Shown here: positions 533 to 7,077 of the stretch, piece by piece
How the letters are laid out: each line of letters opens with the position of its first letter
Numbering within the stretch: the stretch's first letter is position 1
Assembly: GCF_004168285.1 (NCBI RefSeq)
Contig: NZ_SEWF01000030.1
Coordinates: 1-64,000, forward strand
DNA: 64,000 bases
Direction: 5' to 3'
From: Emticicia agri
Lineage (GTDB): Bacteria; Bacteroidota; Bacteroidia; Cytophagales; Spirosomataceae
The notes under the pieces: generated by a model
What the model was told of the DNA's origin: nothing
Databases searched by the model: none
Seen by the model: the letters and a program-made list of their open reading frames with translations, nothing else
Program-made: the position numbers and the translations under genes

Positions 533-2033
<1,501 letters not shown>

Positions 2034-2209: not shown

Positions 2210-2286
2210 GGGCTTGTAGCTCAGGTGGTTAGAGCGTTACACTGATAATGTAAAGGTCCGTGGTTCGAGTCCACGCAGGCCCACCA
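2210..2286 (+). tRNA. tRNA-Ile (GAT)
   Basis: A full cloverleaf can be drawn: acceptor GGGCTTG/CAGGCCC (one G-U pair), D-arm from TAGCTCAG, anticodon loop with GAT (about 2244-2246), T-arm GTGG-TTCGAGT-CCAC, and an encoded CCA tail (2284-2286). It lies in the 16S-23S spacer, the usual place, and is processed from the rRNA transcript. Confidence 0.97.
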
Positions 2287-2369: not shown

Positions 2370-2443
2370 GGGGGTTTAGCTCAGCTGGCTAGAGCACCTG
2401 CTTTGCAAGCAGGGGGTCAACGGTTCGAATCCGTTATCCTCCA
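2370..2443 (+). tRNA. tRNA-Ala (TGC)
   Basis: Cloverleaf with D-arm TAGCTCAG, anticodon TGC, T-arm AACGG-TTCGAAT-CCGTT and discriminator A at 2443. The acceptor stem pairs GGGGGTT with ATCCTCC; this leaves a T-T opposition at position 6/67. CCA is not encoded (CAG follows), unlike the neighbouring tRNA-Ile. Position between tRNA-Ile and 23S is standard for this spacer. Confidence 0.95.
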
Positions 2444-2680
2444 CAGAAACTAATAGCGAATGAAGAATGAGCGAATTAGTGAATAGTAAAAAGAGTAAAA
2501 ATAAAGAAATCGGCTTCGAGTCGGATATAGTTCTTTAAAACAGGTATTTTAATACCACTATTCTAAGGATAAACAAATAAATTACCTTAACAAACTAGCA
2601 CAGCTTGGTAGTTATTAAGGATTTGTTTTGAACTGGGTAAAGTTATTTGACATGATGGAAGAGAGAAGAAAAGAGATAAA

Positions 2681-5490
<2,810 letters not shown>

Positions 5491-5600
5491 ATTTTTTCAT
5501 CTCTTTTTTTCTCTCTCCATTTAAGTCATAACATATAACTTAACATTAAAGATATTAGTTGTAAAAGTTCTGAAAAGAATCAAACAACACAAGAAATTCA

Positions 5601-5665
5601 TGGCGTCCATTGGACGGGGCCGGGGTTGCGTACAACTTCAGTTCTTCTCATCGAGAACCAGTAAA
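5601..5665 (+). other. Truncated 5S rRNA-like remnant (unit 1 of 3)
   Basis: TGGCGTCCATTGGACGGG (5601-5618) is the 5' end of the adjacent 5S with one substitution. Then come 18 extra bases containing a hairpin, GTTG-CGTA-CAAC, followed by a degraded version of the 5S helix III/loop C region, after which the similarity stops short of the 3' half. The normal 5S starts 8 bases later. It has no terminator of its own. It is probably a decayed 5S copy, but the extra 18 bases align position for position with part of the insert in unit 3 (see 5856-6062). Confidence 0.7.
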
Positions 5666-5672
5666 GATTTCA

Positions 5673-5779
5673 TGGCGTCCATTGGGCGGGTGTTCACCTC
5701 TTCCCATCTCGAACAGAGTAGTTAAGCCCCGCACCGCTGATGGTACTGAGTTCATCCTCGGGAGAGTAAGTAGATGCCA
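5673..5779 (+). rRNA. rrf: 5S ribosomal RNA (unit 2 of 3, canonical)
   Basis: Normal-sized 5S rRNA of about 107 nt. The ends TGGCGTC and GATGCCA pair as helix I. The interior carries the conserved TTCACCTCTTCCCAT and CGAACAGAG segment of helix III/loop C, AAGCCC, GATGGTACTG and GGGAGAGTA. It is followed by a strong terminator at 5794. Mature ends may extend one or two bases further. Confidence 0.93.
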
Positions 5780-5793
5780 GGATTTTATTACAA

Positions 5794-5826
5794 AAGCCTC
5801 TAAGAGCAATCTTAGAGGCTTTTTTT
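5794..5826 (+). terminator. Rho-independent terminator after the canonical 5S
   Basis: A 12-bp stem (5794-5805 with 5810-5821) closes a GCAA tetraloop and runs into seven T residues. It would end the rRNA transcript before unit 3 unless read-through occurs. Confidence 0.9.
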
Positions 5827-5855
5827 ATGACCAAAAATCCAACAAACGGCCTTCT

Positions 5856-6062
5856 TGGCGTCCATTGGGTGGGACCGAGGTCGTGCACGACCGAGACGCG
5901 TAGTCTTCACCTCTTCCCATCTCGAACAGAGCAGTTAAGCCCGGGGACGCCTAGTCCGCACCGCGACTACGCGTCCCGTGATGTTACTGACAGTGCGACT
6001 GCCGGTTTATCCTCGGGAGAGTATCATTCCATGATGGAGTAGATGGACTGGCCGTCCGCCCA
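5856..6062 (+). other. Expanded 5S rRNA-like gene with hairpin inserts (unit 3 of 3)
   Basis: The 5S core is repeated here with only about four substitutions against the canonical copy, but at 207 nt it is exactly 100 nt longer. The extra sequence falls into blocks: 32 nt replacing 2 nt (5874-5905), then 14-nt inserts at 5943-5956, 5965-5978, 5991-6004, 6024-6037 and 6046-6059 (net 30 + 5 x 14). Each block is self-complementary: GTCG-TGCA-CGAC, GAC...GTC, CAGT-GCG-ACTG, TCAT-TCC-ATGA, GGAC...GTCC. No other indel is needed to align the core. It has its own terminator at 6077, so it is laid out as a complete transcription unit. Whether it enters ribosomes, acts as a separate RNA or is a decaying copy cannot be told from sequence. 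Confidence 0.8.
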
Positions 6063-6076
6063 GGATTTTATTATAA

Positions 6077-6109
6077 AAGCTCCAGATAGCAATATTTGGA
6101 GCTTTTTTT
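6077..6109 (+). terminator. Rho-independent terminator after the expanded 5S-like unit
   Basis: Stem 6077-6088 with 6093-6104 around the loop GCAA, followed by seven T residues. Loop and flanks match the terminator at 5794, but the stem bases differ (GCTCCAGATA against GCCTCTAAGA) while pairing is kept, with one G-U. The two terminators therefore come from one duplicated unit and have kept their structure. Confidence 0.9.
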
Positions 6110-6159
6110 GTGGTCAAAAATCCAACAAAACGGCTGTTTGGAGAGCCGACTCTACACAA

Positions 6160-7077
6160 TCATTCTCTATTTTTTCTCAGCGATTGCTTTAATAAGCTAA
6201 TGATATAGTCAATATCTTCTAAGTCAGACAATTTTATTTCATACGAGCCATTACCCCAATGCCCAACATTTGATACGTCTCTTGCGATTTGCTTTTGGTC
6301 TTGCAAGTCACCACTTTTAAGATTCAAGTAAATTTTTAAGCCTTTGCCCTGCAAAACTATATCACAGAAAATGTTATTGTCAATTTTGAAACCAATTGTC
6401 TGTTTTTTAGGCTGGGTTGTAACATTGTCTTCAAGTGCAATGAGCCTTTCTTTTATTTGTTCGTATAGTTCTCTTGTTTCAAAATCAACTTTTTGCAAAT
6501 GATCTTGTTCTGTAAACACCTTTACTTCTTTATTAACAGCTTCAACTGTTTGGTCATTCCTTGAAATGGTCTTAATGCTCTCCTTTGCTGAAGTTTTTTG
6601 AATTTGCTCAAATGAGATAGTATCATTCTCAAAACGTTTAATTTCCCAGAGTTCAATTGGTAAATCTTTGAAGTTTATCGCTTCTCTTTGATAATTTGTA
6701 AATTGTGGAGAAACAAAAATTACTTTTGATTACGACCAGTCTACATCTGTCCGTTTAAGAATTGTTTGCTGGGTTTCGTTAAATTCAAGGATAAAGTCAG
6801 CTTTGTTGTTAAGCATTAGCGACAAGTAGGCATATCCTTGGTCTATTACACTAAAATTCTTATCTCGTTTGTATTCGATAATTACAAAGGCTTTAGTTTC
6901 TCTATCAAATGCTAAAGTATCTATGCGAAAATTATTAAGTGAAAATTCAGAACGAATAAAGTCTAATTGCAAAAGTGATTTTAAGTTTTTCTCAACTAAT
7001 GTCTGAATGTCTTTCTCAAACTTGAAAGAAAGTTCTTTAATAAAATCCAGTCTTTGTCCTATTTTATAAAGTGGCAT
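6160..7077 (-). pseudogene. Broken DUF91/DUF5655-type nuclease-like gene (one in-frame stop)
   Basis: Read on the minus strand from 7077 there is one continuous frame of about 305 codons except for a TAA at 6730-6732. Before it lies a PD-(D/E)XK-like half (RIDTLAFD ... FVIIEYKR, about residues 52-73); after the stop the same frame goes on with SKVIFVSPQFTNYQR and a C-terminal DUF5655-like part (NVGHWGNGSYEIKLSDLED). The codon that became TAA was probably CAA (Gln), a single C-to-T change. Intact family members are usually one protein of about 300 residues that binds or cuts DNA or RNA; their role is poorly known. A downstream GTG at 6517-6519 could restart the C-terminal part alone. Sequencing error is possible. 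Confidence 0.8.

Follow-up and report, generated by a model that had tools for sequence, protein, structure and literature searches.

An expanded second 5S rRNA copy in Emticicia agri, probably redundant and colonised by 14-bp hairpin repeats

Results

An enlarged 5S copy at the end of an rRNA operon

The window, by which we mean the whole 64,000-nt stretch of DNA analysed, corresponds to positions 1–64,000 of the 73,340-base contig C30 of the Emticicia agri genome (G000; 6.65 Mb in 174 contigs), and it opens with an rRNA operon whose end carries additional 5S-like sequence on either side of the canonical 5S rRNA gene (Table 1). The initial annotation described the downstream sequence as a second 5S gene enlarged by exactly 100 nt of self-complementary blocks, with about four substitutions in a near-intact core and a terminator of its own, and this description is borne out. 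A 32-nt block (5874–5905), composed of 18 + 14 nt, stands where the canonical 5S has TG, and with the five further 14-nt inserts the length bookkeeping is exact (207 − 107 = 100 = 30 + 5 × 14). The core differs from the canonical 5S at exactly 4 of 105 comparable bases, and a terminator hairpin follows. Every block is self-complementary, though a 14-mer by itself makes a hairpin of little stability (the five folded, as DNA, gave −0.8 to −1.5 kcal/mol), and the stability of the whole expanded RNA is not unusual when compared with shuffled sequences (z = −1.13).

Table 1. Features at the end of the rRNA operon in the window
Feature	Position	Strand	Remarks
16S rRNA gene	533–2033		operon upstream of both 5S sequences; window opens with operon
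tRNA-Ile gene	2210–2286		between 16S and 23S of operon
tRNA-Ala gene	2370–2444		between 16S and 23S of operon
23S rRNA gene of operon	2681–5492	+	
Partial expanded 5S copy	5597–5668	+	upstream of canonical 5S
Canonical 5S rRNA gene	5671–5782	+	Rfam, 76.8 bits
Terminator hairpin of canonical operon	5787–5828	+	inverted repeat; absent from the sites of the terminator/promoter scan
Expanded second 5S copy	5854–6065	+	both termini present
Block 1a, 18 nt	5874–5891	+	hairpin GTCG-TGCA-CGAC; outside the 14-nt pairing scheme
Insert 1b, GACTACGCGTCTCG	5892–5905	−	differs by one letter from GACTACGCGTCCCG
Insert 2, GACTAGGCGTCCCC	5943–5956	−	exact copy of a dispersed 14-bp repeat
Insert 3, GACTACGCGTCCCG	5965–5978	+	same sequence as the unit that other Cytophagales carry in tandem arrays
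Insert 4, CAGTGCGACTGCCG	5991–6004	+	exact in degenerate tRNA-Arg copy of a sister species
Insert 5, TCATTCCATGATGG	6024–6037	+	not found as a dispersed repeat
Insert 6, GACTGGCCGTCCGC	6046–6059	+	four exact copies in the genome, itself included; splits 3′ strand of helix I
Terminator of second copy	6075–6106	+	

A repeat (D1) in which positions 5777–5858 and 6060–6141 are 78% identical indicates that the duplicated unit includes the terminator and the spacer that follows it. The partial sequence upstream of the canonical gene is the start of a further expanded 5S copy; it has an 18-nt hairpin block related to block 1a, with different letters and the pairing retained, and is without the 14-mer 1b. 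Elsewhere in the same genome, contig C14 holds a truncated expanded copy that is 95% identical over 128 nt, contains inserts 2–6, three of which differ by a single letter, and ends abruptly beside an apparent transposase gene. Because this copy has inserts 2–6 and sister species have related inserts, the inserts are no sequencing artefact.

Recurrence of the inserts as dispersed and tandem 14-mers

The suggestion that the second copy is the landing ground of a tiny palindromic element gains support from the recurrence of its units, four of the six 14-nt units (1b, 2, 3 and 6) being repeated elsewhere and insert 4 being found exactly in a tRNA copy of another species. Insert 2 takes the form GACTNGGCGTCCCC, whose exact copies number 17 in its own genome, insert 2 included, against 0 for the reversed sequence, and 63 across the 11 genomes of the genus, where the reversed control gave 0 in 11 of 11; at least one copy is present in nine of these genomes and none in G007 and G008. 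GACTNGGCGTCCCC is the main 14-mer form in the genus. Across the family it matched 70 of 200 genomes as against 29 of 200 for the control, the latter counted by hand, and as a tandem pattern the insert-2 form matched only the E. agri genome among 395 genomes of the phylum. Looser patterns were less discriminating: GACTNSGCGTCYCS with one mismatch gave 35 matches to 22 for the control in G000, 14 to 32 in G003 and 6 to 17 in G001, and since it is not enriched in several genus genomes we counted only exact or context-supported copies. Likewise, GACTNCGCGTCCCG with one mismatch lay at or under its reversed control in most genomes tested, so little can be read into an isolated weak match.

Inserts 3 and 1b correspond to a unit that forms tandem arrays, chiefly in Cytophagales. 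The tandem pattern GACTNCGYGTCNCGGACTNCGYGTC occurs in 49 stretches of the genome contigs database, which by a hand count of record titles divide into 37 from Bacteroidota of Cytophagales type (Spirosoma, Dyadobacter, Rhabdobacter, Cyclobacteriaceae and Marinoscillum) and 12 from Proteobacteria, Haliea and Achromobacter among them. These 12 stretches in another phylum lie at loci L124, L126, L133, L135, L136, L138, L139, L147, L148, L158, L163 and L167. In the order sample the tandem pattern was present in 6 of 390 genomes, the reversed control in 0 of 390; viral contigs yielded 0 stretches, and a 56-nt tandem query found no match among plasmids.

For insert 6, matches to GACTGGCCGTCCGC with at most one mismatch exceed the control in G000 (10 to 1), G003 (10 to 2, with a tandem run of four) and G002 (7 to 0), and 7 of the 11 genus genomes match. 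Insert 4 is exact in both expanded 5S copies of G000, in G002, in G009 and in the degenerate tRNA-Arg copy of G010, and its pattern with two mismatches stands at 14 in G000 against 6 for the control, slightly above it. Insert 5 is found exactly nowhere but in the window and, once, in G001, a number that chance could give, and a search of the genus genomes revealed no convincing second home for it, nor were convincing dispersed relatives of the 18-nt block 1a found. A sequence-blind census of 1.26 Mb of the E. agri genome (60 stretches plus the window) detected six period-14 arrays, two of them from the 14-nt hairpin family; within that sample no exact GC-rich 14-mer with at least three copies passed the flank filter. 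The same sample contains a GC-rich 15-mer, CCGCGCGGCGTCCGC, with 12 occurrences and varied flanks.

Genomic settings and clean empty sites

The 17 exact GACTNGGCGTCCCC copies in G000 occupy 15 places, which we sorted by eye save for an ARAGORN check. Two are in 5S copies and three are tRNA-associated, two of the latter within 15 nt of a tRNA gene called by ARAGORN and the third, in the same tRNA cluster, within an isolated fragment of a tRNA-Lys flank. A repeated inverted-repeat element accounts for six more and REP hairpins (TATCCCTAC^GGGATA) contain two; of the last two, one is at the remains of a Y1-transposase gene and the other elsewhere. The repeated inverted-repeat element, which starts with GCCACAATGTACAC or similar, was seen at L275, L279–L282, L284 and L291, often with the 14-mer at one place and with some arms lacking it.

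We then joined the flanks of 345 distinct copies, each differing by at most one letter from one of four forms, and looked for the resulting junctions in the same loci; matches came mostly from tandem arrays, and the analysis was narrowed to 115 single copies. For 33 of the 115, a relative has a gapless flank junction (no gap within about 12 bases on each side, at least 19 of 24 letters identical), in a non-random sample whose loci were chosen for the motif and in which some of the 115 are probably chance matches. Merging shared targets by eye leaves about 18 independent empty sites, seven of them in 5S copies. Compared with their empty counterparts, filled sites have gained exactly 14 bp and nothing is duplicated. 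A 3-bp target duplication, with the unit read as an 11-nt hairpin plus 3, was considered and dropped, as flanks disagree at most of the sites read, and any preference for inverted-repeat targets is weak (5 of 16 sites).

A crossed pairing scheme shared by the 14-mers

The 14-mers share a layout of 3 + 4 + 3 + 4 nt that allows block one to pair with block three and block two with block four. Units 1b and 2–6 all satisfy the five pairs 1-9, 2-8, 4-14, 5-13 and 6-12, and inserts 4 and 5 are unlike the others in sequence, yet fit all five and 7-11 as well. Among 15 inserts drawn from 5S copies of G000, G002, G003, G004 and G031 and from one tRNA copy of G004, pairs 1-9 and 4-14 can form in all 15, 5-13 and 6-12 in 14 each, and 2-8 in 13 as a Watson-Crick pair and in one further insert as G-U, with 7-11 unpaired in 10 of the 15. 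The strand of each insert was set by the analyst, 3-nt tail first; one G509 insert of ambiguous register, the other, too rearranged blocks of that copy, and hairpins of 17 and 18 nt were left out of the sets.

In the 15 inserts 85.6% of cells are paired, as against 57.8% after shuffling, and covariation is 0.632 against 0.136, with the caveat that kin sequences can exceed such shuffles. None of 500 shuffles was as high on four of the five measures and 10 of 500 were on the fifth, and slid versions of the scheme all fared far worse. Adding three one-letter variants from the contig-C14 copy (18 inserts) gave 86.1% against 55.3% paired and covariation of 0.699 against 0.153, and on the fifth measure, the one on pairs altered at both positions, 51 of 500 shuffles scored as high; a set of 25, which includes 10 inserts recognised with the pattern already in mind, gave 82.0% against 56.4% and 0.569 against 0.148. 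Across a set of 106 different units from tandem arrays, counted with their ragged ends, compensated changes exceed those expected under independence at 1-9 (27 against 10.7) and 2-8 (16 against 3.2), where the excess is partly built in by three seed forms, and at 5-13 (8 against 3.2) and 6-12 (5 against 1.2). Pair 4-14 shows 1 compensated change against 1.0 expected, and 30 one-sided changes. Predicted from these letters, crossing pairs in the order 3-4-3-4 would match either an H-type pseudoknot or two hairpins that form alternatively, and the compensatory changes could reflect either selection or the correction of imperfect palindromes at replication.

Inserts in 5S and tRNA copies of relatives

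A 5S match was obtained in 42 of 58 relatives, and the 5S surroundings were read in part of these 58; second 5S copies scoring below the cut-off appeared in G003, of the same genus, and G021, of another. The decorated copy of G003 carries GACTGCGCGTCCCG and, at the position corresponding to insert 2, GGGGACGCCCAGTC, that of G002 (same genus) carries tandem and nested inserts as read by eye, and G004 (same genus) has a partial copy with insert CGGGACACGTTGTC. In G031, from another genus, 3′ fragments of 5S plus terminator are repeated and a 14-mer sits at the site of insert 6, and two further genera (G024 and G509) have decorated copies and also a canonical 5S. A 201-nt query for such copies matched 8 of the 11 genus genomes, with the match confined in G005, G006, G007 and G008 to the stretch in common with the canonical 5S, and found nothing in G001, G009 and G010. 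In G021, two tandem extra 5S copies (L033, 926–1220; 36.0 and 35.4 bits in Rfam) contain a 17-nt hairpin insert of different sequence; neither this insert nor block 1a was accepted as a 14-nt member, both being outside the 14-nt scheme.

Relatives also have 14-mers in partial tRNA copies that adjoin intact tRNA-Thr, tRNA-Pro, tRNA-Arg and tRNA-His genes. At L295 1101–1560 (G275) and L218 1350–1869 (G006), three to four partial copies of a tRNA end plus terminator, with 14-mers, adjoin an intact tRNA-Thr or tRNA-Pro gene. In G034, a relative from the same family, four tandem 14-mers break the final repeat of a CRISPR-like array (L083, 9194–9249), as read by eye. On contig C5 of E. agri itself, ARAGORN called unusually long tRNA-Ile and tRNA-Lys genes (89 and 91 nt; L276, 1709–1797 and 1932–2022), which have mutually similar GC-rich extra letters near the T loop that are not the 14-mer.

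Candidate movers

Y1_Tnp matches are present in 14 of 14 genomes searched. Thirty Y1_Tnp loci, a part of all such matches, were screened with four 14-mer forms, and no transposase linked to the 14-mers was found among them: an exact 14-mer occurs at just one locus, where the gene is decayed, and two-mismatch matches occur at three others, and a RAYT was accordingly set aside as mobiliser. At L187, L188, L191 and L193, RAYT-like Y1-transposase genes are flanked by another REP family (GTCCCGTAGGGAC or GTCCCGTTAGGGAC). Around the tandem arrays, no gene family specific to their neighbourhoods emerged and none occurred in more than six organisms; judged by eye, the leading families looked common or like antisense frames.

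Status of the second 5S copy

Searched with RF00001, whose curated cut-off is 38 bits, the second copy returns only 38 nt (5903–5940) and scores 27.1 bits. When its inserts are placed on the Rfam structure line of the canonical 5S, insert 2 interrupts helix II in its 3′ strand, insert 6 does the same to helix I, and block 1 takes the place of the terminal part of the 5′ strand in helix II. One of the core substitutions changes the G in the conserved GGUA of loop E, a motif in which a change carries weight. Universal pairs next to this GGUA are named in passages of PMC7812874. A simple scan of the + strand from 5450 to 6300 found no sigma-70-like site, in a phylum, Bacteroidota, for which promoter scans of this type are weak.

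The initial annotation had raised the possibility of a specialised 5S, in which the hairpins would project from a normal core and the molecule would enter a subset of ribosomes. A core with only four substitutions, the retention of both ends and a terminator, the occurrence of expanded copies in several species of the genus and, in passages of PMC7812874, the existence elsewhere of expanded 5S rRNAs as the sole type in the cell all speak for it. The division of two core helices and replacement of part of helix II, the loop-E change and the low Rfam score speak against it, as do a predicted fold that fails to restore the core (prediction misfolds the canonical 5S likewise), the position of the copy behind a terminator and the truncated equivalents in G002, G031, G024 and contig C14, and we hold a working 5S of this kind to be highly improbable. 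A new regulatory RNA, also proposed, finds no support here, the + strand scan having turned up no promoter-like site. Because the helices are split, loop E is changed, Rfam sees only 38 nt and the + strand scan found no promoter-like site, we read the second copy as a redundant 5S copy that is probably not a working 5S. The similarity of its core may have been kept by recent duplication or gene conversion, and function could also account for it.

Discussion

We consider it likely that the end of the operon was duplicated and that redundant, probably non-working 5S copies were colonised by a family of 14-bp hairpin repeats. The tandem duplication would have taken the 5S gene, its terminator and the spacer as one unit, and the extra copies would have been colonised stepwise, by repeats in both orientations. 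The same repeats would occupy other, mostly structured non-coding sites, namely partial tRNA copies, tRNA flanks, REP hairpins, inverted-repeat elements and the end of a CRISPR-like array, with the 3 + 4 + 3 + 4 pairing of members largely conserved while their letters drift. The operon-end duplication and the existence of the units elsewhere at cleanly interrupted sites are well supported, and from these we infer that the 14-bp units are mobile.

If the 14-mers were immobile, they might have originated locally by replication slippage or template switching at hairpins, with compensation produced by quasi-palindrome correction; period-14 tandem arrays and compensatory changes can result from such processes and some of the sites are palindromic. 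Against this, identical letters occur at unrelated sites in several genera, and isolated single copies break otherwise similar sequence. As local copying cannot provide identical letters every time, we regard a local origin as unlikely. The 14-mer might also be a conserved protein-binding or RNA signal, immobile and positioned by selection, given that its letters and pairing are conserved and that most copies read in the E. agri genome fall outside obvious genes, but copies are few per genome, GACTNGGCGTCCCC is absent from 2 of the 11 genus genomes, and copies lie within broken 5S and tRNA copies and other repeats and occur as nested and tandem inserts, which makes such a signal very unlikely.

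Returning to colonisation by mobile repeats, we tentatively suggest that the units arrived by insertion into single-stranded or hairpin DNA at replication, carried out by an enzyme acting in trans. Such a route would be consistent with targets rich in hairpins, with both orientations being used and with nothing being duplicated. Y1 (HuH) genes are present, but the 30 loci screened gave no link between them and the 14-mers, and the target preference as measured is weak. It is conceivable, rather than probable, that the units form a class of 14-bp insertion sequences whose identity lies largely in an interleaved a-b-a′-b′ pairing rather than in a fixed sequence, and which has been copied into structured DNA of Cytophagales and some Proteobacteria.

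If the units do move, they would be an unusually small case of precise DNA insertion and would offer a clean system, with an exact length, no duplication and countable empty sites, for the spread of tiny bacterial repeats. If a 14-bp class exists, its members would be shorter than those of the repeat families considered below. The accumulation of hairpins in redundant RNA-gene copies may also hint at how rRNA expansion segments originate, as gene conversion could transfer the gathered hairpins into working RNA genes. On the practical side, such copies can mislead the annotation of 5S and tRNA genes.

Relation to known systems

No published description of these 14-mers was recognised in the literature searched, which comprised open-licence papers. 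The small dispersed repeats of cyanobacteria are also very short and interrupt other sequences, including RNA genes; they measure about 21–27 bp, and their sequences differ from the 14-mers here. In MITEs a target-site duplication would be expected, and the 33 clean empty sites are without one. The REP/RAYT system resembles the present one in that palindromic repeats of small size are spread over many genomes, alone or in clusters, and is described in passages of PMC3733652 as having REPs of 20–40 bp with a GTAG or CGTC tag, the CGTC class with stems of 8–9 bp. By contrast the unit here is 14 bp with a 3–4 bp stem, and the letters CGTC are found in units 1b, 2, 3 and 6 and are absent from inserts 4 and 5. 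A RAYT gene is flanked by its repeat, an arrangement not seen for the 14-mers among the 30 Y1_Tnp loci; the RAYT-like genes examined are flanked by other REPs, and one such REP hairpin is broken by a 14-mer. Mitochondrial repetitive or double hairpin elements and GC clusters are likewise small hairpins that enter intergenic DNA and sometimes rRNA genes, but they are organellar, and a 3-4-3-4 pairing is not among the features described in passages of PMC2800124.

The closest parallel to the 5S copies comes from Stepanov and Fox 2021, who in passages of PMC7812874 report expanded 5S genes, as well as 5S-like remnants that lie past a terminator, 3′ of a normal 5S gene, with some inserts common to expanded and broken copies. 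The initial annotation fairly stated that it knew of nothing like the second copy, but the kind is partly known from these expanded genes and remnants (PMC7812874, in passages). As in their cases, extra 5S-like sequence lies 3′ of a normal 5S, behind a terminator, with base-paired inserts. Functional expanded 5S genes leave the core helices undisturbed, whereas inserts 2 and 6 fall within helices II and I. A role in ribosomes is certain for those that are a cell's sole 5S type; the present copy has a canonical 5S as its neighbour. The position downstream of a normal 5S, the preceding terminator and the inserts are those of a 5S-like remnant; remnants lack one or both termini, and the second copy has both, though the copies in contig C14 and G002 are truncated. 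The molecules described by Stepanov and Fox in those passages of PMC7812874 have one to three segments of 13–109 nt and come from Clostridia, Pseudoalteromonas and Halobacteria, unlike the copy described here, which has six blocks, five of them of 14 nt, comes from Cytophagales and contains 14-nt units most of which are repeated elsewhere. With the expanded 5S itself partly known as a kind, what is new here is the identity of most of the 5S inserts as sequences repeated elsewhere.
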